22,900 bases of DNA from a virus: positions 1 to 22,900 of IMG/VR virus record IMGVR_UViG_3300007344_000268; one strand, given 5' to 3'. The translations under genes were made by a program, and so were the position numbers. The notes under the pieces are model-generated. The model saw nothing but the letters and a program-made list of their open reading frames with translations, was not told the DNA's origin and made no database searches. This document shows, one piece after another, positions 2,315 to 20,287 of the stretch; the first letter of the stretch is position 1; every line of letters starts with the position of its first letter.

Positions 2315-5300
2315 TTATTTAGAATTTAATTCTTCTTTTCTCGCTTTAATTCTTTCATCTTCTAAAGTTGTAAGAGCTATATTGAATAAGTTATTACCTT
2401 TTTTAATAATACCATATTTTTCAGCAAACTCATCAATTTTTTTAGCAGCATCAATTCCGTAGTCCTCTTTAATTTTATTATAGAAATTATTATAATATAT
2501 TGCTGCTGTTTCTGGATTTGAGTCTTTCATTTGAGATGTTTTGATTAAAGCATAACCTATATTTATTCCTTCAAAATCTAATCCCTCTGACTTTAATGAT
2601 TCGTTCAAATCTCTTTGCTCCACATAATCATCTAATTTTTTACCTAATTTGGCTTTAATATTTTCATCTGTATCATAGAACCTAACTTCAGGACCAACGT
2701 AATAAATTAAACTATTTTTAGCTCTATCAAATGCTGTATTAATGAAATCTCTTATTTTATCCGAATCTCCAGACTTTATAATATCATAATACTCTTTTCC
2801 TAATTCATTTTTAATACTTCTCCAACTCTCATTTTTAGTATCTTCTAATTTTTTATTCTTTTCAACTTCAATAATAGATTCATCTTTAGCAACCTCTGGT
2901 ACAGAACGGAGAATTGTTCCTCTAGCTGGCTCTGATATGTTGTTTAAAAATCCTTTATTAAAATAATTATTTAACTCAACAATATCTTCTTCTCTCATTC
3001 CAGATGTTATTTCCTCATAGACTGTACTAAATCCATTAATCCAAATGTTTCTGTTTGGGTCTGTGAAAAGTTTACCAAAAGATGTTTGAAGCCTAGCTGG
3101 AGACATATTTGTGGCTTGACCAATATCTATAAATAATTGTTGAGTATTATAATTGACTTCACTAGAACTCTTAACGTCTCTATAAGACTTATATATTTCA
3201 TCATCTCTAAATGTATCATAATTAGCGTTATACGCTATCAAAGCACTAAAAGTAGGTATTCCAGTAAACACATTTCCTAAGTCAACTATTCCAGTAATAG
3301 GATTAGATAATTCAAAAGCCTTTTGTAGGTTAGATTTATCCTCTTCATCAATAAAAAGACCAAAGTCAGCTGATGAGTTAGGGTTGATTCCTGTTTCATT
3401 AAGATAAGCATAATCTTCAAAAATCGTAGTAAAAGGCATCATGAAATGGTCCTTTTTAATTCTAAGATACTGTCTATTACCTTTTTCATCTTTCCATGGC
3501 AGCATAAATATGAAATTATTTATTTTCTCATATTTACTAAGCTTATCATAATCATCTTTATATTTAGCAATATTATAAGCAGCTAAAGACATAGTCATAA
3601 CTCCAAGTTGACCTATTTTAAATGCAGACTTTATAGGATTATCTTTCATGTATTTGGCTCCAACTCTAAAACCTTGTAATGAAGCGTTTAGATAAGGTGA
3701 TGCAGCATCAAGCTGTTTAGTAAATGTTCCTCCTTGAGAGAAATCCAAAGTTCTTCTAGCATCCTCAGTGGCTAACCTTTCTATCTTGTCTAATTCTTTT
3801 AAGTTAGGTTTTCTTTTATACTGAGCTTCAAATTCAGCTGTTCTTTTAGTTATTTGCCTACGTCTAACAGCCATACGAACCAAAATTTCAGAAGTCTCTC
3901 CAAACCATGACATAGCATTAGAAACATCTTTAGCACCTTTAGCAACTTTACTATCACCTTTGTTTATCTCTATTTTACCACTAGTAGATAGATAATCCAT
4001 ACCTAATCCTTGAGATAATGCTTTTTGATATTCTTTACCCCTAGTCATGCTAGTCATCATTACAGAACTTAGGTCTGAAGAAAACTGTGCGGCACCAATA
4101 GGTAGTATAGAGGAATATGTATCTGTACTAAGTAAAACATGTTGGAAATCTCTTGGGAAGTTTGTTAAAGCAAACAGTGGATTAGTTCCTGTAGCCCATG
4201 TTTTAAGTAATGAAGTACCACTTAAAATTCTACCCCAATTAGCTGATGTTGTTTTACTACTAAAAGAACCAGCTATTTCATTATCTATAGCCATTTCAGT
4301 TACCTCTCCATCAATAAGGACATCCATCACAGTGTAACCATCCTTTTTCGGATTTGACTTACTTATAACATAACCAAAATCACTAACGTCTTGTCCGTTT
4401 TTTTCAGCTTCATTTAAAAAGTCTAAAACTGATTTTCTAGAGTCATTTAAAAATGCTATTTTTTCAGCAGCAAGAATTTGTTTCTGTATTAAGTCTGAAG
4501 CATTATTATACAAGGCTTTTGTTGAGCCAGACTCTAAAGATGCTAATATTCCAGACAAAGACTGAACATCTTTTTTGGTTTCAAATTTATCAGCTATTAC
4601 TTCACCTTTATCATCAGTATAAAGTATTTTGTCAATAAAAACTCTAGGAGAATATTTAATATCTTTTAATCTATCGTATGTTTCTTTTGTTATAAGACCT
4701 TTCTCATACTTAAACTTTAAAAGATTATTAGTTGCTTCAAAGTATATATCCGCTCTTTCTCTAGCTCTCTGCCAATCAGGATTATTAGCCATCTCTCTAT
4801 CCATCCATGCTTTAGCATCAGCAGAGTTCATAATCACTGGTTTTCCTTTTAAATCAACTGATGTGTTTAGTATTCTCCAAGGAAGAGTTTTTTTACCATC
4901 AATATCAACTGAGCCTAATCCTGCTGGAACTATAACATCTTCCTTCATAAGATTTCCGTTTTCAGTATCAAACGTTAGTCCCATTTTTTCAGCTAAAGAA
5001 TTAATTTTTTTTAGATAACTCTCATAAATATCAGGATTTTTTTCAGCATCTATAGATGATAATTCATTAATAAGATTATCAGCTTGAGACTTCACGCTAT
5101 CATAAAAATTATCCAAAGCTATTATACGCTCATATTCTATTATTGAGTCGCTTAATTTTCTTTGCTTTTTATTTAAGTGAGATTTACCTATACCTCCATC
5201 CATCTCTCTTAAAATCTTTTGAGCCTTTGATTTAGCTGATGCTGAGGCTCCATTAACTAAGTTTCTAAAGGCTACAGCTTCTAATGCTTGAGCACTTAAA

Positions 5301-8300
5301 CCGTATTCCTCACCTAATTTTTCCAACTCATATTTGAATCTGTAATTTTCATCAAATATTAATTCTTGAACCTTTATTCTAAACTCTTTAGCTGTTAATT
5401 TTTTACTTTGATTAAAATCGTTTTCTCTTTTAGCTTCAACTTTATCAATAACACTAGCATCACCTTCTCTTTCTTCTTGGTATAAAGGACCTTCAACATC
5501 TATAGGTGGTGTAGAAGGAGCATCTTCTTCTAATTCATTTTCATTTACCTCAACAATACCTTCAGGATTTCTGTTAGGAATATCAACATTTATAGGACTA
5601 AATCCTTTCTTATTGAAGAAATCTCTAAACATTTGCTCGTTAAATTCTTCTGAGTTAGGTTTGTTAGCCTTAATATAATCAATAGCTTGTTGAACAGCTT
5701 TATCTAAAGACTTCTTAGTATAAACGGTTCCTCTCATAGCTTGCTGAACAATACTAACTCCTACTTTCACAGTTGGTGTAAGTAAGAATGGGTCTGTTAA
5801 AAATCCCATATCTCTTTCGAGAAACTCGGTCATTTGTTTATCTAATTTAGAATAAAATGACTCATCTATATTTGCTTCTTCTATATCAGATATTCTTTGT
5901 TCTATTGTAGGCATACCTTCAATAGTTTCTCCAGTTCCACCAGTCTGTCTAACCTTTCCTCTATATAAATCATAAAAAGATTCTTGATTATAATCTATAG
6001 CCATCTGTTCTGCTTTAGCAGCATCTGAAACTAATGCAACTATATCTAAATAAGATATTCCTGAATCTCCACTGGTAAATGTACCTACAGCTAAATTCTT
6101 GTTTCTATCTAATAAGTTTCTATGCTTTATTTTAAAAGCTTCAATCTCCTCTTGAGTAAATGTTTGACCAGCTGGTTTTTTAACAGATAGGTCAGGGAAT
6201 ATACTAACAGAAAATAGTTTCTTTCCATCTAAATTACCCATCTCCTCATTGAATGTAGTACCACCTTCTACAGTACCATTCTGAGTTCTTTGCATATTTA
6301 AGTCGAACTGCTCTTTATTTAATTCAGGTCTATTAAATACATAAGGTTGGTCTTTGGTAACTTTTACATCTGGTTTAATATTATTTAATTCAGATGTATT
6401 AACAGTATTTCTAACTACTTTTTTACCATCAGTTCCTAAGAATTTAATCTCACCAGAATCATACATTGTTTTAAGAGCGTTCTCTAAATCAGCTCTCTCT
6501 TCACTCTCGATACCATTCTTGTAATCACTTATTCCTTTCTGAATCTTAACAGTACTCATTCCTAAGTCTAATCTGCCTAACCTATTTTTTGTTTTTTGGT
6601 CTACTTTATTTTCTAAAGCGTTCTCTATTTGTTCAGAAGCAAATGTATTAGCGTCTTCAGTAAACTCTACAGTTGGCTCAACATCAGTAACCTCAGTTAT
6701 AACTGTCTGTAAACCAGGTAGTTGGTTAACTATATCATCTGGAAGTAATCCTATCTTTTGGTCAGCATATTGTCTTTCAGACAAAGGAACATAATCAGGG
6801 TCTCCTTTAACTGGTATGGAGCCATCTTCTCTTCTTATTTGTTTACCAAAGTTAACCCAAGAGTTTTGACCTCTAGTCTCTGTAGTCATAGCTCTTCTAG
6901 CTTGTGGACTATACATACGAGAATGATTAACCCAAGCGTTTTCCTCACCTTTAGGACCGAAACCATTACCTAACTCAGCATGACCAAAGAAATCATGAAC
7001 GAATCTAAATAAGTCGTTAACTAACAATGGCTCTCCGTTAATATCGGTAAACTCTGTTTCTGCTAGTAAAGGATTTTCTGCTCTTTGCTCTTGAGTAATT
7101 CCTTCTTGACCAAAACCAGACTCAGTAGAGAATATATACATGTGCTTATTATCTCTAACATCTCTAAGCATTTCAGCTGAATTAGCATACGGCTCTCCTT
7201 CACCTTTCCATATCTCCACTTTATATCCTCTATCGCTAATTAAATTATATTGGTCTATAGTTTCTTGAGCCATTGCAGCATAAGCAGCTTTAACTTCAGG
7301 ATTATTAGGGTCATGTTTCATAGCGTCAAAAGCATCAGCTATACGCTTTGAATTTTCTATATCTATATCAGGGATAGGACTAGCACTTGTTGGAGTTATT
7401 CCTAGCTCCTCAGAATTTTGCTGTAAGTATTCATCAGCTATCGCAGAGGCATCTGATACTGGGTCATTAAATAGCTTTGAGCCTTCAGGAACACTTGTAG
7501 CTTCACCACCTCTTTGTCTTACAGACTCTTCATCAAGTAATGTTGTTCCTTCAACAAAAGCTTCATTATCTAATAAAGATAATTGAGTTCCAGATTCAGT
7601 TCTTTTGTATTTTTCTATTAACTCATCTAATTTAGCTAAAGCTTCTTGAACACGCTGTGAATCACTTCCACCATATATATTATTAATCTCATCAAATGTA
7701 AGTTTAAGCATTCCAGCACTGAAAGCACTAGAGAACATGGTACATGTGATAGCTGTAGCTAATAGTTTATCTAATTTTTCGTCATCCGTTTTTCCAAATG
7801 TTTCTTCTAAAGCCTTTTCCCAATTAAGACCTTTCTTAGTTAAACTATCCAACATCTCTCCAGAATACTCAGCTACAAGTTCAACTTGACCCCCTAAAAC
7901 AGACCTAACACTATAAAGACCAATAGGCATAGCTTTATCTCCTATTTTAGCAGCTTTCATTAATTTAACTAATCTAGCGTATCTTGCAGTTACAGGAAAG
8001 AAGGCTTCAACAAATCCTTCTGCTGTACCCATTTGCCAGCTTACTTTATCAGATGGAGCTAAACCAAAAGATACGGCTCCAGTAAACGTTCCTTTAGCTA
8101 AGTTCAATGCAAACTTACCTGGAGTTCCCTGACTAGATAAATAATTAGCTAAAGCCATTACTCTTGGACTAGACTTTAATGATTTTAAAAATGCAACAGG
8201 GACATTTCTTGTGAGCATTATTTGAGCCATTATAGGAATAGAATTTCCTAATCCCATAGCAACCATATCACTAACATCATTTCTAACTTGTTCAAGTTGA

Positions 8301-10030
8301 CTTTCTGTTAATTCAATACCATTCTCCTTCATTACCTGACCAAACATACTTATGAAGTCAGCATCAGAATCAACATTAAAACCTAAACCTTCAGCAAAAC
8401 CTTCTCCAAAAAGCTTTAAATTTAAAAAGCCTCCTTTATTCATGGAGCCTGGGTCTGTGTTAGTAAACAATACTCTTGTTGCTGCTATAAGCTTAGCTTT
8501 GTTGCTAGAGTATAAGTTTTGATAATTCTCAACTACACTCTTAATATATTCTTTCTCCTCATCATTTATTCTTAGAGGTTCTACAATATCATCTGATTCA
8601 GATTTAAAAAACATATTAACCAAACCACTAGCATCAACAGGGTCATAAGGATTTGTTGATTTAATTAGTGCTATAGTAGCATCCTTTAAAGATATTTCTC
8701 CAGACTTAGTTTTGAACTTAAAGTTTAAATAATCATCTTTTAATTGTTTATCAGCAGCAGAATACTTTTCAAATATGGTTAGTAATTGACCTCTTTCTGT
8801 TCCATCAAAAAGAGAATAGTTAGCTTCTATCTCTTGATTAAAATTAATTGTTTTTTCATCACTAGAAGAAACAAACTCTCTATCAATTCTGTTACCATCA
8901 AAATCAAACATTGGAGTAATCTTAGCACTTTCACCATAACCCCTAGTTATTGTTAATTTTAAATCTGATAATTCATTTCTTAAATCAGCTATATTTTCAG
9001 CGTTAGGATTATCTGCTATTTCTTTTTGTAATTCAAACTGTCTTTTTCTTAGTTTAGATAAATTTATTTCTTCATCAGATAAAAATTCATAAGCTCTATC
9101 TTGTAACTCTTTATCAAAAGCTTTTGACATTGAAGACCTTAAATCAGACTCATTTAATTCTTGAGCTGGTGTAGATTCTATTATTTTAGTAAACAAACCA
9201 TGATTTTCTTCTGATAACTCAAATAATAAATCATTAGTATAATCAAATTTTTCTTGAGTCGTTGCTCCAAATAATACTATATCATTGGCTGGCTCACCAA
9301 ACAATCCTTCTGAAGGTGTATTATATATTATCTTCTTTTTAAAATCTGGCTCAGTACTTATAATATCGTAAGAGTAAGCATTTTGTATTAAAGTATTTTG
9401 ACCTGAGTTTTGTTGTAATTCTGATGTTATAGTCTCAAGCTCTTGTAGCTTTAAATTCTTTTCTTCCTCAAGCTTATCTAAAGTTTCTTTTGGAATACCT
9501 CTTGTTGATGTAGCTTGACTATATCTAAAATTTAAACTATCATATTCTTCTTTTATAGTTTTATAGTCGTTGTATAATCCAACTCCTTCACTATCAACAA
9601 AAACTTCCTGACCTTCATCTCCAAATGGTATAGGTCTTACTGAAGTTCCATCAAGACCAAAAGCTCTTGGATATTTATTTATTTCTACTTCCTTTATATT
9701 AGAGCCATCAAATGTATACTCATCATATATTGGGTTTATAAATGTCTTTTCTTTTATTGAGTCTGGTACTTGAGAAATATCAACTACTTCACCACTTTCA
9801 TTAATAAAGTTTCTAGATTGGTAATCAAAATTTAGTGATGCCGATACACCATCTTCCGAATCTGATGTAGTACTTTCCGTATCCGAAATTTTTTTTTTAC
9901 CGTATTTTTGTTTAAACTCATCTACAATGAATTGAATGTCTTTTTCCTCTTCACCGTTAGACTCCATTTGACTAATTATACCTAAAAGTCTTTCTTTATT
10001 TTCTTCTGATAATATTAATTCGTCTTCCAT
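2315..10030 (-). CDS. Giant virion-internal (cargo/ejection) protein with HDxxGH domain and LPD38-like region
   Basis: This 2571-residue protein is a third of the window. Residues 1-45 form a helical acidic N-terminus of a type common in large phage proteins. Residues 155-215 look coiled-coil. Residues 590-775 hold several hydrophobic helices (for example near 590-612 and 753-775) that could contact membrane. Residues about 890-1120 form a distinct domain containing HDFFGH (H1012, D1013, G1016, H1017), GEENAW (1028-1033), H1036 and ETRGQNSWVN; this looks metal-binding or catalytic, but I cannot assign it. Residues about 1280-1360 resemble a module seen in large polyvalent phage proteins. Residues about 1930-2160 (NPLFALTNFPRDF near 1947) resemble LPD38. 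The C-terminal 400 residues are charged helix. Size, mosaic build and location after the tail genes fit a packaged protein ejected with the DNA, like crAss cargo proteins. It could instead act only inside the infected cell. Confidence 0.72.
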   Translation of the reverse strand: MEDELILSEENKERLLGIISQMESNGEEEKDIQFIVDEFKQKYGKKKISDTESTTSDSEDGVSASLNFDYQSRNFINESGEVVDISQVPDSIKEKTFINPIYDEYTFDGSNIKEVEINKYPRAFGLDGTSVRPIPFGDEGQEVFVDSEGVGLYNDYKTIKEEYDSLNFRYSQATSTRGIPKETLDKLEEEKNLKLQELETITSELQQNSGQNTLIQNAYSYDIISTEPDFKKKIIYNTPSEGLFGEPANDIVLFGATTQEKFDYTNDLLFELSEENHGLFTKIIESTPAQELNESDLRSSMSKAFDKELQDRAYEFLSDEEINLSKLRKRQFELQKEIADNPNAENIADLRNELSDLKLTITRGYGESAKITPMFDFDGNRIDREFVSSSDEKTINFNQEIEANYSLFDGTERGQLLTIFEKYSAADKQLKDDYLNFKFKTKSGEISLKDATIALIKSTNPYDPVDASGLVNMFFKSESDDIVEPLRINDEEKEYIKSVVENYQNLYSSNKAKLIAATRVLFTNTDPGSMNKGGFLNLKLFGEGFAEGLGFNVDSDADFISMFGQVMKENGIELTESQLEQVRNDVSDMVAMGLGNSIPIMAQIMLTRNVPVAFLKSLKSSPRVMALANYLSSQGTPGKFALNLAKGTFTGAVSFGLAPSDKVSWQMGTAEGFVEAFFPVTARYARLVKLMKAAKIGDKAMPIGLYSVRSVLGGQVELVAEYSGEMLDSLTKKGLNWEKALEETFGKTDDEKLDKLLATAITCTMFSSAFSAGMLKLTFDEINNIYGGSDSQRVQEALAKLDELIEKYKRTESGTQLSLLDNEAFVEGTTLLDEESVRQRGGEATSVPEGSKLFNDPVSDASAIADEYLQQNSEELGITPTSASPIPDIDIENSKRIADAFDAMKHDPNNPEVKAAYAAMAQETIDQYNLISDRGYKVEIWKGEGEPYANSAEMLRDVRDNKHMYIFSTESGFGQEGITQEQRAENPLLAETEFTDINGEPLLVNDLFRFVHDFFGHAELGNGFGPKGEENAWVNHSRMYSPQARRAMTTETRGQNSWVNFGKQIRREDGSIPVKGDPDYVPLSERQYADQKIGLLPDDIVNQLPGLQTVITEVTDVEPTVEFTEDANTFASEQIENALENKVDQKTKNRLGRLDLGMSTVKIQKGISDYKNGIESEERADLENALKTMYDSGEIKFLGTDGKKVVRNTVNTSELNNIKPDVKVTKDQPYVFNRPELNKEQFDLNMQRTQNGTVEGGTTFNEEMGNLDGKKLFSVSIFPDLSVKKPAGQTFTQEEIEAFKIKHRNLLDRNKNLAVGTFTSGDSGISYLDIVALVSDAAKAEQMAIDYNQESFYDLYRGKVRQTGGTGETIEGMPTIEQRISDIEEANIDESFYSKLDKQMTEFLERDMGFLTDPFLLTPTVKVGVSIVQQAMRGTVYTKKSLDKAVQQAIDYIKANKPNSEEFNEQMFRDFFNKKGFSPINVDIPNRNPEGIVEVNENELEEDAPSTPPIDVEGPLYQEEREGDASVIDKVEAKRENDFNQSKKLTAKEFRIKVQELIFDENYRFKYELEKLGEEYGLSAQALEAVAFRNLVNGASASAKSKAQKILREMDGGIGKSHLNKKQRKLSDSIIEYERIIALDNFYDSVKSQADNLINELSSIDAEKNPDIYESYLKKINSLAEKMGLTFDTENGNLMKEDVIVPAGLGSVDIDGKKTLPWRILNTSVDLKGKPVIMNSADAKAWMDREMANNPDWQRARERADIYFEATNNLLKFKYEKGLITKETYDRLKDIKYSPRVFIDKILYTDDKGEVIADKFETKKDVQSLSGILASLESGSTKALYNNASDLIQKQILAAEKIAFLNDSRKSVLDFLNEAEKNGQDVSDFGYVISKSNPKKDGYTVMDVLIDGEVTEMAIDNEIAGSFSSKTTSANWGRILSGTSLLKTWATGTNPLFALTNFPRDFQHVLLSTDTYSSILPIGAAQFSSDLSSVMMTSMTRGKEYQKALSQGLGMDYLSTSGKIEINKGDSKVAKGAKDVSNAMSWFGETSEILVRMAVRRRQITKRTAEFEAQYKRKPNLKELDKIERLATEDARRTLDFSQGGTFTKQLDAASPYLNASLQGFRVGAKYMKDNPIKSAFKIGQLGVMTMSLAAYNIAKYKDDYDKLSKYEKINNFIFMLPWKDEKGNRQYLRIKKDHFMMPFTTIFEDYAYLNETGINPNSSADFGLFIDEEDKSNLQKAFELSNPITGIVDLGNVFTGIPTFSALIAYNANYDTFRDDEIYKSYRDVKSSSEVNYNTQQLFIDIGQATNMSPARLQTSFGKLFTDPNRNIWINGFSTVYEEITSGMREEDIVELNNYFNKGFLNNISEPARGTILRSVPEVAKDESIIEVEKNKKLEDTKNESWRSIKNELGKEYYDIIKSGDSDKIRDFINTAFDRAKNSLIYYVGPEVRFYDTDENIKAKLGKKLDDYVEQRDLNESLKSEGLDFEGINIGYALIKTSQMKDSNPETAAIYYNNFYNKIKEDYGIDAAKKIDEFAEKYGIIKKGNNLFNIALTTLEDERIKARKEELNSK

Positions 10031-12930: not shown

Positions 12931-15900
12931 TTATTCTTCACTAAGCTCACTTTTAGAGATGTTAGAGTTAACGCTATATATCTCTATTAGTTTCTTAGTT
13001 TTCTTAGTTAATTGTGTGTTCATAAAGGTTCCCTTCATTCTATCTCCTTCAGCTTCTCCATCTTTAATAACATAAGCGAAAGTATCAGTTATAGCTACCG
13101 CTGCGTTTGCTGTTAGAGTATATGAACTAGCTCCTATTGAATCTATAGTTCCAATAAGAGTATTTACTCCAGCGTTGTTATAATATATTTTATCTCCAAC
13201 ATTAACTCCAGGATTTGGTGAATCAGCCAAAGTAACAGTTGCTGAAGCTAGTGAAGTTGTAGCGTTTCCTATTCCATAGTATTCACTTCCTCCAGGCTCA
13301 CCATCTACATTTCCAGTAGCAAATGGAATGTTAGCGTATAACATACCTTCTTTTCTATCATAAGCAGTTTTATCTATAGATGTAGATGAAAGATTAGTAT
13401 CTAAAACTGTATCATAACCTGTCTTAGTTCCAGATTCAACACCAGCATCTGTGGAGTCATCAGCGAAAGTACCGTCAACAGTTATAGAATGATAAGTCTT
13501 AACTTTATTAGGCATGCCATTAAATGGGAACTTTAATACTGTGTTATAGGTTGTTCCGTAAAAAGTATTATAACTCGATGTATTAGCATCATGTAAATAC
13601 ATTTCTCCATTTAAGAAAGAGAAGAATTTTTGATTCATCTTTCCGTACATCTCTGGTATGTAAGACGCAAAAGAACTCCATCTTTCGTTTCTTTCTGACC
13701 AGACTATGGTTTCACCAGATTTTATTAATTGTAAATCAATATAAACTACGTCTGGAGCAGCTCCCTTTTCATTCCACTTATCTCCATCATTATCATATCT
13801 ATTTAAGTCTTCATATAAATCTGGGAATGTTATAACGTATTCATCGTGTTTAGGATTATAGGCTCCTAATATTCTAAAGTAATAATTTATTCCTTTAAAC
13901 ATTTCTGGATATTCTCCTTTTACTACTGGCTCCTTATACCAATAGTTCACGTTATATGAAAATCCTGCCGTTGGGTCTGATTTTTGGTAATCTATAGATT
14001 TATCTCTAAAATAATCAACCATGTTTATTTCAGATATAGGTCTTAGTTCATTTCCTCTCAAACTTAATACAGCACCATTTTTAATATCAACCCAGTACAA
14101 TACGTTTCCATTGAAAGCGAAAGACTCAGGGTTTTTACTAATTCCATAATGCTCACTAAATGCTATAGCGTTACCTAACACATTAGAAGATAATCCAACA
14201 TTTGTACTTCCGTCAGCATTAGTTATAATGTCTTTATTTACAGATACTTTATGAGTTCTATCTTCTTGAATCATAATCAAATCAGTATCTCTGGAATGTA
14301 TCTTTTGAATGGAGCCATCAGATTTATCAAAATCAGAATAACTAAATAATTCAAAACTACTTAATCCATTATAGTTTACGTCTGGTTGGAATGGCTCAGA
14401 ATATATAATACTAGATTCTTTTAATTCCTCTTTAGCGTAAGGATTAAATACATTTGGTCTACCTATGTGTATATGGTTAGTAGGATAAAAATCATTAAGG
14501 TGATAATCTTCAACAAATGATGAAGTAAATAATGGAGCCTCTTGATTATTATTTCTCATTATTCTTCTCTTAAAGAATACATCACCTTCTTCAAAGTAAC
14601 CTTTGGCTGGAGTAACAGATTGACCACCTTCATTTAAGTCTCCAGTAACAACCTGAGTTAAAGTCATACCTCTGTGAGCTCTTAGGTCTGTATGAGGATT
14701 AGCTATAGTATGCTTAAATCCAAACTCATAATAAACTCTATTAGAGGTGTCTTCAATTTCTTTCATAGGTCTATATATCTCAAAAAGACCGTTTGCGAAG
14801 AAGTTTGAAGTTTCACTAGCACTAACGTCAATAAATGTTCCTCCGTTTGTATCACCTAATTCCTCTATTGTTATAAAGTATCCCTGCTCCTCTAAAGGTT
14901 CTTCACCACCAGCACCATTATAATATTCGTATCCAGTTATCTTAACATCTATATAGTTTGTTAAATATGGAGTACCATCTCCTAACAACCAAGGGGAAGT
15001 AATAAATCTTATTCTATCTCCCTCAACAAAACTATAATCAATTAATGGATTAGATTGCTCTTTATATGAGTCAGCAGCACCTTTAAGTGAAGTTAAAGAT
15101 AAGAATAATCTAGTTTCACCAGTAGCTGGAGTAGTCGCTGTAAAAGCTTCTGGACATATAAATTGAATAAATTCATCTACCGAAGTATTCTTTGAATAAG
15201 CCCAACTCCAATACTTAGCCCATTTAGGAGGCTGACTATTTACTTCCCAATCTATTCTTGTCTTTCCGTATAGATTATCTTGACCTTCATTTATAGGAGT
15301 ATCATTATCATTTCTTTCACTAAAGAATTTAACGTAACATTGAGAAGTTCCGTTTTCTACATCAATAGCAACCGTAGAACATCTACCTTTTCCATCATAG
15401 TATATGATACCAAAATCATGGAAGGCTCCAGCTTTAAAACTACCAGACTTTCCATCACCTGAATTATATCCTATAGCTTCTATAGATACTAAATTCTGTT
15501 TATTTGCGGCCGCCAATAATGGGTCAGAATTATCTTCGGGAAAGTTAAAGTTTAATGATATACCAGCATATTTATTACCATAGTATTCATCATTATCCTG
15601 TCCAATAGTCCATTTCTGAGTAGATATTAATCTAAGTATTCTTGCCGCATTGTCTAAATCACCAGATAGTGCTGGAGAAAAATTGGTTTTGTTAGGAGAT
15701 ATAAGCGGTAATAATAAAACCTTTTTAACGGTATCAACAAAACAACCTTTTAACCAAGCTGGAGAACCATCATCAGGTTTTTCAGATATACTACCATACT
15801 TTTCGTAAATCAAATTAAGTCTTTTAGCGACATATATCATCTGATTATCTAATCCAGAAATATCTTCACTATATACTTCTCCAGAATCACCAGTATTAAT

Positions 15901-17583
15901 ACTTGTAGATAAAGAAACGCTTTGAGGTAATGAGTCTTGTGCTTCATCTAAACTAATTAGTCCATCACCAGCATTACTAGCTCTTACAGCAAAAGAGAAG
16001 TCAAGATTTATGTTAACTATCTTATTAGCTGTAGGAGTCATAGAACTATAATCAAACGCAAAATTTATAACGTTAAAATCATCCTCATTAACATCATATC
16101 CACAAAATGGAGGAAAAACACTTGAGTTAGGTGCTGATATATTTTTATTTATAAGATAATATTCTCTATCCCTACCATTTTCACTATAATTGTAAGTTAG
16201 AGTAGCTCCCTGAGTTATATTTGGACCATAACTAGGTTTAGATTTATTATTACTATTATAAGGTCCTATAACAATTCTTTGGTCTGTTGATGAAGTTGGT
16301 AAAGATGTTAATGTTATAGTTTCTTGAGAACCTACAGGAAGTGAGTCTAATCCTTCTATAGCTGAGTTTGTAAGTGCTATAGTTTGTGCTGTCGCATTTG
16401 AGCCTACATAGGCGTTTTGCTTTTTTAATTCAGCTGTATCTCCAGTATTACCACCAGCTAAAAGACCACCAGCAGTAACTGTCCAACTAGGATAAATGAA
16501 ATCATTAAGGTCTTGAGCATTAGAAACTTCACCATACTTAGGAGTCAATGTTACATCAATACTATCAACATCAAATCCCTCAAGATAGTTACCGTATGAT
16601 ATTCTATTGTCAGCAAGTATCGTTTGAGTTCTAGCTCTCTTAGGAACATTGTCATAAAGCTTCGCAGTTTCTCCTTTATCAGCAAATGGATATATTTTAT
16701 CATTATAGAATTTAAAATCAACCGCAGTATTACTAAGAAAATTACTATAATTGTTTTTTATTTTTCCTATTATATAGAAATCTCCTCTGTTACCATTTTT
16801 ATCAACATCAAAGTCTTTACAAGTTCTAGCACAAATCTCTATAAACTTAACCTGATAATTACCATGATAAATCTCTACATTTAAAAAGTTATTATTTGAT
16901 TGAGAGCTAGCATTAACATTAGCAACATTTGACTTCATTTCCTCAGAGTGAGTCGCATCACTTATCATACTCCATTCAGTTACCTGATTATCATAATAAT
17001 GGTATCTATATCTGAACTGAAATGATTTACCGAATATGTTGTTTTTCTTTATGTTTGAGTCAGTTCCAAATGTAGTTTTTGGTTTTGTAAATGGTGGTCT
17101 TTTCTTAACCTCAACATACTGTCTTTTTACTTCATCGACACCCTGATAAGGATAGTTGTTAGCAATATCTTGTCCAGCAGGATATGGAGTATACATGGAG
17201 TATGGATAGTACAAGTCTGGAGAAGCATTTAATTTTGCGGCAGATATATTATTATAACCGTCAGACTCCAATACATTCATACTAGCCTTAGATTTAACTA
17301 TGTTTATCTCTTGAGGCTCCCCATATCTATCAGATGTAAAGTATAATACATCTCCTATTTTATTAACTTCTGTAATTAGGAATTTCTCTTGCCATCTAAA
17401 AAGATTGTCAGACTCAACTCCACAATCTTTAAATACAACATCTACAGTATTTGTAAGTATATCATACTCTATTATATGATGGTCTTCTTGAGTGCCATAT
17501 ATAAAATAATACATCTTATCATTTGATGTATCCTCATAAGAACCAATACACTTATATTCTCTTATTTCGTTTGCTACTGGCAT
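12931..17583 (-). CDS. Tail muzzle / tail stabilization protein, main part
   Basis: This 1550-residue, beta-rich protein matches the pattern I recall for the large tail stabilization (muzzle) protein of crAss-like and related podoviruses, which closes the tail end and holds DNA until infection. CIGSYEDTSNDKMYYFIYG at residues 12-30 begins a beta-propeller-like region. IQEDRTHKVSVNK (about 1104-1116) and GISKNPESFAFNGNVLYWVD (about 1143-1162) are the most recognisable core segments. TAYDRKEGMLYANIPF lies near 1400. A Thr/Ala/Val-rich insert of about 70 residues (about 1430-1500) interrupts the C-terminal region. In full-length relatives, a KGGLDxD-type N-terminus precedes the CIGSYED part; here that N-terminus is in the separate upstream gene, in the same frame, across one TAA and one TAT codon. 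There is no Shine-Dalgarno before the ATG, only AAATAATAT. The next gene is the first cargo gene. Confidence 0.78.
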   Translation of the reverse strand: MPVANEIREYKCIGSYEDTSNDKMYYFIYGTQEDHHIIEYDILTNTVDVVFKDCGVESDNLFRWQEKFLITEVNKIGDVLYFTSDRYGEPQEINIVKSKASMNVLESDGYNNISAAKLNASPDLYYPYSMYTPYPAGQDIANNYPYQGVDEVKRQYVEVKKRPPFTKPKTTFGTDSNIKKNNIFGKSFQFRYRYHYYDNQVTEWSMISDATHSEEMKSNVANVNASSQSNNNFLNVEIYHGNYQVKFIEICARTCKDFDVDKNGNRGDFYIIGKIKNNYSNFLSNTAVDFKFYNDKIYPFADKGETAKLYDNVPKRARTQTILADNRISYGNYLEGFDVDSIDVTLTPKYGEVSNAQDLNDFIYPSWTVTAGGLLAGGNTGDTAELKKQNAYVGSNATAQTIALTNSAIEGLDSLPVGSQETITLTSLPTSSTDQRIVIGPYNSNNKSKPSYGPNITQGATLTYNYSENGRDREYYLINKNISAPNSSVFPPFCGYDVNEDDFNVINFAFDYSSMTPTANKIVNINLDFSFAVRASNAGDGLISLDEAQDSLPQSVSLSTSINTGDSGEVYSEDISGLDNQMIYVAKRLNLIYEKYGSISEKPDDGSPAWLKGCFVDTVKKVLLLPLISPNKTNFSPALSGDLDNAARILRLISTQKWTIGQDNDEYYGNKYAGISLNFNFPEDNSDPLLAAANKQNLVSIEAIGYNSGDGKSGSFKAGAFHDFGIIYYDGKGRCSTVAIDVENGTSQCYVKFFSERNDNDTPINEGQDNLYGKTRIDWEVNSQPPKWAKYWSWAYSKNTSVDEFIQFICPEAFTATTPATGETRLFLSLTSLKGAADSYKEQSNPLIDYSFVEGDRIRFITSPWLLGDGTPYLTNYIDVKITGYEYYNGAGGEEPLEEQGYFITIEELGDTNGGTFIDVSASETSNFFANGLFEIYRPMKEIEDTSNRVYYEFGFKHTIANPHTDLRAHRGMTLTQVVTGDLNEGGQSVTPAKGYFEEGDVFFKRRIMRNNNQEAPLFTSSFVEDYHLNDFYPTNHIHIGRPNVFNPYAKEELKESSIIYSEPFQPDVNYNGLSSFELFSYSDFDKSDGSIQKIHSRDTDLIMIQEDRTHKVSVNKDIITNADGSTNVGLSSNVLGNAIAFSEHYGISKNPESFAFNGNVLYWVDIKNGAVLSLRGNELRPISEINMVDYFRDKSIDYQKSDPTAGFSYNVNYWYKEPVVKGEYPEMFKGINYYFRILGAYNPKHDEYVITFPDLYEDLNRYDNDGDKWNEKGAAPDVVYIDLQLIKSGETIVWSERNERWSSFASYIPEMYGKMNQKFFSFLNGEMYLHDANTSSYNTFYGTTYNTVLKFPFNGMPNKVKTYHSITVDGTFADDSTDAGVESGTKTGYDTVLDTNLSSTSIDKTAYDRKEGMLYANIPFATGNVDGEPGGSEYYGIGNATTSLASATVTLADSPNPGVNVGDKIYYNNAGVNTLIGTIDSIGASSYTLTANAAVAITDTFAYVIKDGEAEGDRMKGTFMNTQLTKKTKKLIEIYSVNSNISKSELSEE

Positions 17584-17586
17584 ATA

Positions 17587-18249
17587 TTATTTAGCTTTAA
17601 ATTCCTCAATAAAAATATTATAACCCTTTTTTAAGTTACCATCATCAATATCTCTACCGCCTATATCTATCTTTAAAATATCTGAGTTATCAGTAGATGT
17701 AAATATTAAGCAAGGTAGTTTTGTTCCGCTAACATTTATTCCTTCAGAATTGTATCTAACACTTATACCTTTATCAGATAATGCTGTAGCGTTTTTAGCT
17801 ACAAAATCAGCCATATACAATTTTATATTATCAACATCATTTAATGCTGATATACTAGCTGTATCCTCTTTGTAAGCAACAGAACTTGTAATATCACTGC
17901 TTGTTTTAGAGGCAAAAAAACTAAAATCAGTTAGACCAGCTGGAACTGAGCCAGGAAGAAAGTAAGCCACTCTTTTTGGAACACCATTACCATGACCAAC
18001 GTTTTCTTCTCCAAAATTATCATTACCAATATAATCCCCAATATCAACAAATAGACTTGGACCTACTGGAAATGTAAAATCAACTTTTAGTGTTCCTGGT
18101 ATATTTTGAATGACACCTATACTGTTAGACTCAGAAGATTGATTCCTAGTATTTAAAGCGTAAAAATAATCGCCTTCCTTTACTAATCGCTCATCGGTGT
18201 CTCTATCTAATCCACCTATAAATTGTTTCTTCTCCTGTAAATTAGCCAT
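17587..18249 (-). CDS. Tail muzzle protein, N-terminal piece encoded separately
   Basis: This 220-residue protein starts MANLQEKKQFIGGLDRDTDE and continues GDYFYALNTRN, then NSIGVIQNIPGTLKV at about residues 41-55. This is the usual beginning of the muzzle/stabilization protein of crAss-like and similar phages (GG.D.D..ERLV..GDY..A.N.R, then GV..N..G). Normally the CIGSYED segment would follow soon after. Here about 160 extra residues follow instead, ending with a Thr/Ser/Asp-rich, probably beta-sandwich portion (about 125-220), and the gene ends in TAA. The next gene starts in the same frame 3 bases later with the missing continuation. So this looks like a muzzle split in two, with an inserted domain at the junction. 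It could be a true two-chain arrangement, a young nonsense mutation, or an assembly or sequencing error. It lies 4 bases after the connector gene. Confidence 0.72.
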   Translation of the reverse strand: MANLQEKKQFIGGLDRDTDERLVKEGDYFYALNTRNQSSESNSIGVIQNIPGTLKVDFTFPVGPSLFVDIGDYIGNDNFGEENVGHGNGVPKRVAYFLPGSVPAGLTDFSFFASKTSSDITSSVAYKEDTASISALNDVDNIKLYMADFVAKNATALSDKGISVRYNSEGINVSGTKLPCLIFTSTDNSDILKIDIGGRDIDDGNLKKGYNIFIEEFKAK

Positions 18250-18253
18250 TTAA

Positions 18254-18982
18254 TTATAGTTTAGGAGCCTGCTTAAATGCTTTTCTAGTAGCTTGTAAAG
18301 CCTCAGCTTTAGTGAATGTATTCATTCTAGCTCTAGCTAATCTCTTTTGATTATAAAACTCTTTTCTAGCAAACATCTTTTCGTTTGCATTTATACCTCT
18401 TTTTCTCTGTATAGACTTCCAATATATAAATGAAGCCAACGCCTCTTGAGCGTATGTGTGTACCTTTATATCATCTCCAGTAACACCTGTTGAGCCATCA
18501 GATATATATTCTAATATAATATTCTCTAACTGACCAGTTATAGAAGAAAACTCTATAGTGTCATTATCTAAATTCTCTCTATAATAACCGTTAGCATTGT
18601 TACCACCACCAAATCCATATCTACCATAAACACCTTCATCAACATTGTCATAGTAATTACTATCTGATTCTGGCGTAGGAGGAGTAGCTCCAGTAACTAA
18701 GTTTAATCTTTCTTTTCTACCTAAATAGTGTAATTCACCATCTGAGCCTAAAACAGCTATATTAACAAACTTAACGTAGTCTGTAGGCAAAGTTATAGTG
18801 TTAGTAGCTGAATCAACAGCAAGCTCGACAGCCTTAATCATTCTAACAACATCAAAGTTTAATTCTTTTAATCCTCTTAAACCTATGTTGTAATATCTTA
18901 GAAATTCAGCTTGAGTGTTCTTACCTTCATCAACTAAAAGCTCATTTACTACATCTTCTAAACTAACAAATTGTGCACTCAT
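18254..18982 (-). CDS. Tail ring / connector protein adjacent to the muzzle
   Basis: This 242-residue protein begins with a helical region (residues 5-45) containing GLRGLKELNFDV, followed by TITLPTDYVKFVNIAVL at about 57-73. This combination (N-terminal helices, then a beta pair with LPxDYVxF) is what I recall for crAss-like ring or tail-tube proteins and the wider P22 gp4/T7 gp11-like connector fold. Gly/Asn/Tyr-rich residues near 110-135 look like a loop. The last 45 residues are basic (KRLARARMNTF, then TRKAFKQAPKL) and probably helical. It would form a 12-mer ring between the connector and the muzzle, passing DNA through its lumen. It starts 1 base after the preceding connector gene and ends 4 bases before the muzzle N-terminal gene. 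The ring number cannot be fixed from sequence alone. Confidence 0.72.
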   Translation of the reverse strand: MSAQFVSLEDVVNELLVDEGKNTQAEFLRYYNIGLRGLKELNFDVVRMIKAVELAVDSATNTITLPTDYVKFVNIAVLGSDGELHYLGRKERLNLVTGATPPTPESDSNYYDNVDEGVYGRYGFGGGNNANGYYRENLDNDTIEFSSITGQLENIILEYISDGSTGVTGDDIKVHTYAQEALASFIYWKSIQRKRGINANEKMFARKEFYNQKRLARARMNTFTKAEALQATRKAFKQAPKL

Positions 18983-18983
18983 A

Positions 18984-19607
18984 TTATCCTATATTATCAT
19001 TTTTATAATCCTCATTAGCTCCCTTCATAACAGTAAACGTCTCAACTAAGTTCTTTACTATTACAGACTCCAAATCAGCAGGTATTGGATAAGTAGCCGT
19101 ATCAGACAAACTACTTGAAACAGCTATGTAAGATACATTTATTGTAGCTGTAGCATCTTGATATAAATACAAGTCTGTTCCTTGAATATACCAAAACTTT
19201 TTACCTGACTTAGTTACTGTGTCATTATATAAAGGACTAGGGTTTAGAGTTGATGTACCACCACCGTAAGGCATTCTAACATATTCTGTAGTTGAAGAAT
19301 ATACTCTAATAATACCCATATCATTAGGAAGAGATATTGGTTGAGTAGGTAATTCTACTTTATTACTTGATACCGATAATCCTGTTTCTAAACTTACAAA
19401 ATCACCAGTTATTTCTAATTCAGATTTATTAGTAGTTGTACTCTTTGTGTAAAACCTATCCTCTATTAATTGTCTTATAAAAGAATCTCTTTCTTGGTCA
19501 ACCAATACCATGACCTCACGAATATCTATTCTTGCGTCATCAGAAACATTTCCTCCTTCAATTATTCTAAGGACCTGTTCAGCTAATTTTTTTCTTGTAG
19601 TTGCCAT
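18984..19607 (-). CDS. Putative ring / head-tail connector protein
   Basis: This 207-residue protein has an N-terminal helical part (residues 1-47) with DIREVMVLVDQERDSFIRQL, a common first segment in small phage neck proteins. A beta-rich part follows with VELPTQPISLPNDMGIIRVY at about 82-101, then a helical end (ESVIVKNLVETFTVMKG). The LPxDMG step parallels LPTDYV in the next gene and YPADFL in the previous one, so the three genes may be diverged copies of one connector fold. I infer a ring in the neck or tail. Its stop lies 1 base before the next start, and a 3-base gap separates it from the gene upstream, so the three are very likely translated from one message. Confidence 0.62.
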   Translation of the reverse strand: MATTRKKLAEQVLRIIEGGNVSDDARIDIREVMVLVDQERDSFIRQLIEDRFYTKSTTTNKSELEITGDFVSLETGLSVSSNKVELPTQPISLPNDMGIIRVYSSTTEYVRMPYGGGTSTLNPSPLYNDTVTKSGKKFWYIQGTDLYLYQDATATINVSYIAVSSSLSDTATYPIPADLESVIVKNLVETFTVMKGANEDYKNDNIG

Positions 19608-19610
19608 TTA

Positions 19611-20258
19611 TTATTCTTGTTTAGATGATAATCCAAAACTTGTTCCAAATTCAACTAAATCACCCTCTCTAAGACTAACTCCAACATACTCTAATATTTT
19701 GTGAACTATGTCTTTATGAGTGCTAACAGGTAATGTCAAACCTTGAGCATCACCAGCAGAAGCATTATATACAGAGACTCCATTAATAGTAGTGTAAGTC
19801 CATTTAGGAGCAGAAGGTTCTTTTATATAAGTAAGAATGCAAGTTCCAGAAGTAGCTTCAGATGTGCTATTATATATCTCAAAACCCTCATCAATCATTA
19901 CAGCTACTGGATAACTAGCACTAGGAGCCAATATCTGACTATCTAATAAGTTCTTTAGCTTTTCATGACCTACAACCTCAACACTTTCTCCATCGAAATT
20001 CATAGACACAAAGTGCAGAAAATCAGCAGGATAGGTAAAAGCACCGTTAGTTCCAGCAGAGTAAGTAATAGTAGCCTTCTCTACAACAGGAGCCAAATCA
20101 TCTAAATTCTTTTGAGAGTTCTTCTCTTTAAACTTCTCTTCTATAATATCCAGTTGAGCTCTAGTAGCAGCTAAATTAAATTCAGAAGGCTTAATAAATC
20201 CCCTCTGGTCCTTATTCGCTATAAACTGAACAAATCTGTATAACTCGTCTATTGTCAT
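19611..20258 (-). CDS. Head-tail connector / ring protein
   Basis: This 215-residue protein has a helical start with IANKDQRGFIKPSEFN at about residues 13-28 and a long charged helix. FTYPADFLHFVSMNF (about 73-87) and CILTYIKEPSAPKW (about 142-155) then mark the beta part, and IVHKILEYVGVSLREGDLVEF (split here by memory at about 183-203) is the last helix. The NK.Q.GFI.P..FN beginning, the PADFLH step and the YIK.P..P.W strand match a neck protein I recall from Bacteroidetes podoviruses including crAss-like phages. It would form the ring next to the portal. It is the first gene after a promoter motif and terminator, and so opens the neck and tail unit. The ATG is preceded by an A/T-rich leader of about 20 bases. 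Confidence 0.7.
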   Translation of the reverse strand: MTIDELYRFVQFIANKDQRGFIKPSEFNLAATRAQLDIIEEKFKEKNSQKNLDDLAPVVEKATITYSAGTNGAFTYPADFLHFVSMNFDGESVEVVGHEKLKNLLDSQILAPSASYPVAVMIDEGFEIYNSTSEATSGTCILTYIKEPSAPKWTYTTINGVSVYNASAGDAQGLTLPVSTHKDIVHKILEYVGVSLREGDLVEFGTSFGLSSKQE

Positions 20259-20279: not shown

Positions 20280-20287
20280 CAAATATA
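20280..20287 (-). promoter_or_regulatory. Bacteroidetes-type promoter -7 element (TATATTTG) before the neck/tail genes
   Basis: The minus strand reads TATATTTG, 21 bases before the ATG at 20258 and directly after the T-tract of the preceding terminator. Terminator followed by promoter in an 86-base gap is a clean unit boundary. A -33 TTG box at the expected distance is not evident, because that stretch is occupied by the terminator. Confidence 0.6.

Follow-up and report, generated by a model that had tools for sequence, protein, structure and literature searches.

The tail muzzle of crAss-like phages has been described in structural detail for phiCrAss001, where gp44 forms a five-domain hexamer with a propeller gate (PMC10172136; PDB 7qol/7qok). 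In the published structure the Ig1 domain starts at residue 163, and length variation has been reported for the crass and IG2 regions, not for the site at residue ~57 (PMC10172136). In the nozzle of phage T7 (gp12), the propeller is closed by the first strand of the chain (PMC6702177). A literature search, partial in coverage, returned no description of a split muzzle. Here we describe a crAss-type tail muzzle encoded by two adjacent genes. It very probably represents a fixed gene fission whose short N-terminal product (N chain) co-assembles with the main chain as a two-chain muzzle.

Gene order and the muzzle junction

On the minus strand of the window (the whole stretch of DNA analyzed, a 22.9-kb virus record) lies the block of late genes of a crAss-like phage (Table 1). 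The group with the split is a small one of uncultured crAss-like phages, whose hosts are probably Bacteroidota. Two small genes lie between a partial gene, which we take to be the major capsid gene, and three ring/adaptor-type genes; two of the three matched structural PHROGs, and two gave weak SU10_adaptor matches, below cut-off. The order of ring/adaptor genes, muzzle and cargo-position genes is common to the window, phiCrAss001 and relatives. The cargo gene region includes a 2,571-aa protein (2315-10030) whose LPD38 match is marginal (26.7 bits; cut-off 27), and a DUF5675 protein (1-417; 82.8 bits) is truncated by the window end.

The initial annotation described a muzzle gene split in the same frame by TAA-TAT-ATG, and the split was recovered to the base. 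On the minus strand GCT AAA (to 17590) is followed by TAA (17589-17587), TAT (17586-17584) and ATG (17583-17581). The ORFs of 220 and 1,550 codons share one frame, which is uninformative alone: chance would give it in 1 of 3 cases, and in one sister lineage the frames differ.

Table 1. Coordinates of the muzzle genes and associated features in the window.
Feature	Position	Strand	Remarks
Major capsid gene, partial (presumed)	22898-21822	-	Named by gene order
TATATTTG, Bacteroidota-type -7 promoter element	20280..20287	-	Upstream of a five-gene unit with both muzzle genes
Three ring/adaptor-type genes	18254..20258	-	Directly upstream of muzzle, same predicted operon; gaps 1-4 bases
N chain of split muzzle, 220 aa	17587..18249	-	N motif (residues 1-57) and insert (~58-220); kept in 11 other contigs
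Muzzle N-terminal motif (N motif), residues 1-57	18079..18249	-	Equivalent to phiCrAss001 gp44 residues 1-57; alignment with gp44 and isolates
Inserted domain, ~163 aa	17590..18078	-	Between N motif and first propeller blade
Junction: TAA stop, TAT, ATG start	17581..17589	-	Same in all five lineage A sister contigs with complete junction
Main chain of muzzle, 1,550 aa	12931..17583	-	Propeller blades, Ig-like and crass-fold regions, C-terminal domain
C-terminal muzzle region, main-chain residues 1291-1545	12949..13713	-	blastp to phi46:3 gp112, E 4e-26; Pfam
Genes in cargo-gene position	12904-2315	-	Cargo role by position only; small genes beyond

Identity of the two products

Residues 6-57 of the N chain matched positions 3-54 of the crAss_MUZ profile (Pfam PF25731; E 2.8e-5) with 22.9 bits, below the 27-bit cut-off, and Pfam and PHROGs muzzle matches covered residues 5-60. 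With the same profile L024, a relative with the split, scored 26.2 bits, also under the cut-off; the joined relatives L055 (45.3) and L094 (29.9) passed it. In the alignment with gp44, the N motif falls on residues 1-57, and the main chain begins opposite residue ~68, at a point that precedes the gp44 Ig1 domain. The main chain matched crAss_MUZ_C (PF25729) with 35 bits, above its cut-off of 27, and phrog_14478 with an E-value of 2.8e-78. It had been proposed that the first ORF carries the beginning of a muzzle protein and the second the remainder. The gp44 alignment, together with the sub-cut-off crAss_MUZ match, bears out the former, and the crAss_MUZ_C and phrog_14478 matches the latter. 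The C-terminal region of the main chain is also matched by phrog_18548, which is listed without function. A PDB sequence search with single proteins and profiles returned no real relative. Without comparison, the short N gene would be entered as a hypothetical protein.

Distribution of the split

Relatives were gathered via the capsid protein and muzzle profiles. The split was present in 11 other IMG/VR contigs, so that 12 of 12 complete junctions in one clade (support 100/99 in the MCP tree, 96/100 in the muzzle tree) are split. In lineage A (the window and L001-L005) the junction is TAA TAT ATG, in frame and identical throughout; one of these contigs is ~90% identical to the window in the N chain. 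In lineage B (L022, L075, L076) an N chain of 236-245 aa is followed by TAATAATG; here the main gene is in a different frame and the N frame meets tandem stops, TAA TAA. Lineage C (L024, L025, L026) has an N chain of 209 aa and an in-frame TAG AAA ATG. An ATG stands just behind the N-chain stop in each of the three lineages, and across the clade the N chain extends 154-191 residues past the motif. Contigs L006 (= L019) and L023 end within the N chain and their junctions are not complete. No joined muzzle gene was seen among members of this clade. A pattern search of genome contigs found no relative with the patterns used. The main muzzle chain of L026 is interrupted at 17869-17955, where a T run is one base longer than in L024; this may be a homopolymer error in the contig.

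Conserved splits in related genomes had been set as a check of a true two-chain design; they were found in three lineages with three different junctions. The two-gene muzzle is, on comparative sequence evidence, a real and stable gene split kept across three sub-lineages, and its consistency (12/12) supports the proposed two-chain muzzle with a separate N-terminal piece.

The insert and the order of events

The N motif and the first propeller blade were each given a small profile, and each locus was scored for the distance between the two and for a shared ORF. Motif and blade were 10-22 residues apart in one ORF in eight contigs (L046-L049, L052, L062, L070, L105) and also in elemoF, ctfjg026 and phi46:3; cr55_1 and phiCrAss001 gp44 agree by alignment, with motif and blade close and no insert. 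In 20 contigs they were 210-1,463 residues apart in one ORF, and in L103/G001 they share one open frame of 4,120 aa, ~2,360 residues apart (derived from coordinates). In all, among the nearest relatives, 21 contigs carry an insert in one chain, and 8 contigs and the isolates carry none. The insertion site is a hotspot with inserts of 0 to about 2,360 residues, and was not visible at the gp44 residue ~57 position from the structural work on phiCrAss001, which has no insert there.

Giant single-chain muzzles of ~3,197 and 4,120 aa with coiled-coil-like stretches in their inserts were observed: L102 and L104 (3300039045_000069 and 3300030430_002669) have inserts of ~1,460 residues, and L103/G001 (3300025133_000292) has its ~2,360-residue insert at the same site, holding an adhesin-type Lcl_C domain (E 1.2e-19). 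Single-chain muzzles with hotspot inserts of ~220-351 residues were found in L094, L097, L098 and L119.

The initial annotation had noted about 160 residues not expected in relatives. They are indeed absent from gp44 and cultured relatives (and from L046-L049, elemoF, ctfjg026 and phi46:3), but homologous inserts occur, joined, in the nearest relatives (L027, L030, L039, L055 and others). F111, G161, L181 and F183 are invariant over 18 insert sequences from split and joined forms. Compared with joined relatives, members of the split clade have an insert that is shorter toward its C-terminus, and they lack most of the linker back to blade 1. L027 (joined, 210-residue insert) is placed near the split group in the MCP tree with weak support. 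Since close relatives carry the insert in one chain and distant ones lack it, insertion came before the split, which settles the order of the two steps. The simplest history is the insertion of a domain after muzzle residue ~57, directly before the first propeller blade, then one fission in a single clade, with a stop and a new start arising in the return linker to the propeller and giving two genes, and finally drift of stop, spacer and frame.

Selection and expression

Between lineages with the split, the N motif gave dN/dS of 0.07-0.33, compared with 0.43-0.64 in the insert and 0.20-0.24 in the main chain (rough values, with synonymous sites near saturation). The closer pairs (window/L005 and L022/L075) gave 0.12 and 0.22 for the N motif and 0.48 and 0.46 for the insert. 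The low values for the N motif indicate that it has remained constrained since the split; judged by these ratios, both muzzle pieces are still under purifying selection.

The -7 element of Bacteroidota promoters is TAnnTTTG, which TATATTTG resembles. Three copies lie on the gene strand, all intergenic: before the ring-muzzle unit (20287-20280), after it (12925-12918) and at 820-813. Their placement is notable, although the motif is not enriched in the window as a whole (5 copies counting both strands vs 2.5 expected). The copies would divide the gene block of the window into transcription units. No TATATTTG occurs between the N gene and the main gene, which makes co-transcription probable, and both genes lie in one predicted operon. 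Gaps between neighboring genes of the unit are 3, 1, 4 and 3 bases; the 3-base spacer at the junction is the usual gap in the operon, as expected of an ordinary gene junction. From this spacing and the promoter motifs, the two genes would be translated in succession, each start lying a few bases past the preceding stop.

Structure models and assembly

The structure models were weak (mean pLDDT 46 and 55). A joined model (N chain plus main-chain residues 1-420) matched 7qol_P in Foldseek (E 6e-4), essentially through its main-chain part, and gave Z 8.4/8.3 against the phiCrAss001 muzzle 7qol/7qok (VIA). Residues 57-550 of this low-confidence model aligned to muzzle chain residues 64-307 (Z 8.4, rmsd 4.7, 211 residues). 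Its first confident four-stranded blade begins within the main chain (model residues 232-274), which puts the N motif outside the first complete blade; the motif itself was placed without confidence. In the N chain folded alone, the first 66 residues were predicted to be disordered (pLDDT about 30), as might be expected of a segment that depends on a partner. A fold search with this chain gave no convincing match, the best being the flagellar cap FliD (E 0.08).

Two-chain assembly in the muzzle is most likely, as far as can be judged from sequence. As the hexameric muzzle forms, the N chain, with N motif and insert, would associate with the main chain. Going by the T7 nozzle, the N motif would probably supply the strand that closes the propeller, leaving the insert as a free C-terminal domain at the surface of the muzzle.

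Alternatively, the N chain may have been freed for another role, as a tail or decoration protein of its own whose ratio to the muzzle may differ from 1:1, leaving the main chain as a muzzle without its N-terminal segment; such a chain could bind elsewhere on the tail. Prediction for the insert alone gave an alpha/beta domain, ordered in part (pLDDT up to 74), and the insertion site accepts very different modules, including the one with the Lcl_C domain. However, no other part of the N chain has been conserved as well as the N motif since the split, and the motif retains residues that are invariant in joined relatives. This conservation points to continued docking of the motif to the propeller, and we regard a freed N chain as unlikely.

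Readthrough or frameshifting at the junction could also supply a small share of full-length muzzle required in assembly. In lineages A and C the genes share a frame and a single sense codon separates stop from ATG, so a minor fraction of full-length product may arise in these two lineages. As a mechanism of the clade, the regulated readthrough considered in the initial annotation is not supported: lineage B has two consecutive stops with the main gene in another frame, and by eye the end of its N chain (TTT AAA ACA AAA TAA) contains no canonical -1 slippery heptamer. The stop itself differs among lineages (TAA, TAG), TAG terminates other genes normally in relatives L022, L024 and L030, and no tRNA gene, and so no suppressor, is present in the window. 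Readthrough or frameshifting in this role appears quite improbable.

Cultured relatives do have N motif and propeller in one chain, but a base error, an assembly error or a nonsense mutation of recent date in such a gene is refuted to near certainty. The split recurs in independent assemblies: five other lineage A contigs have an identical junction, and the six contigs of lineages B and C are split at junctions of their own. The three junctions, with their differing stops and frames, exclude both such errors or mutations and a shared readthrough mechanism. An intein or intron was rejected because only three bases lie between stop and start, leaving nothing to splice. An alternative code with TAG or TGA as sense was not supported either, the junction stop being TAA in lineages A and B; all complete genes tabulated in the window end in TAA.

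Comparison with known muzzles

The split muzzle shows that, in nature, the N-terminal segment can have a gene of its own, and it offers a test of propeller closure and assembly. The propeller entry may be a variable display site. In the split clade the insert may then have become a module that is produced on its own, can be swapped or removed, and sits on the gate to serve surface contact or gate opening; this is a tentative and rather doubtful suggestion.

Like the window protein, phiCrAss001 gp44 belongs to the muzzle family by position, Pfam domains, residue alignment of the N motif and structural match, but it is one chain of 1,371 aa with no insert at residue ~57. Elemovirus gp22, gp97 of the Cellulophaga phage phi38:1 and the muzzle of Podoviridae sp. 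ctfjg026 are homologous over much of their length and adjoin ring/adaptor-type genes; unlike the window, they have N motif and propeller in one chain and no insert. The T7 nozzle gp12 is a seven-bladed propeller gate at the tail tip (a likeness published for gp44), but a single chain.

An independent precedent for two genes is Bacelvirus phi46:3, in which the adjacent genes gp111 and gp112 encode the muzzle; their records annotate both as structural by similarity to phi8:3. There, however, the break is at the opposite end, with the C-terminal 241 aa separate. In the Bacelvirus phages of Cellulophaga and in ctfjg026, the C-terminal 241-267 aa form their own gene (crAss_MUZ_C, 72-74 bits), found at 10104-10829 in L014 (phi46:3 gp112) and at 10909-11712 in L013 (ctfjg026); a putative glycosidase gene lies between the two muzzle parts of ctfjg026. 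This part is fused in phi38:1, Elemovirus and the window. With an N-end split in the window clade and a C-end split in Bacelvirus and ctfjg026, muzzle fission has occurred at least twice, at opposite ends.
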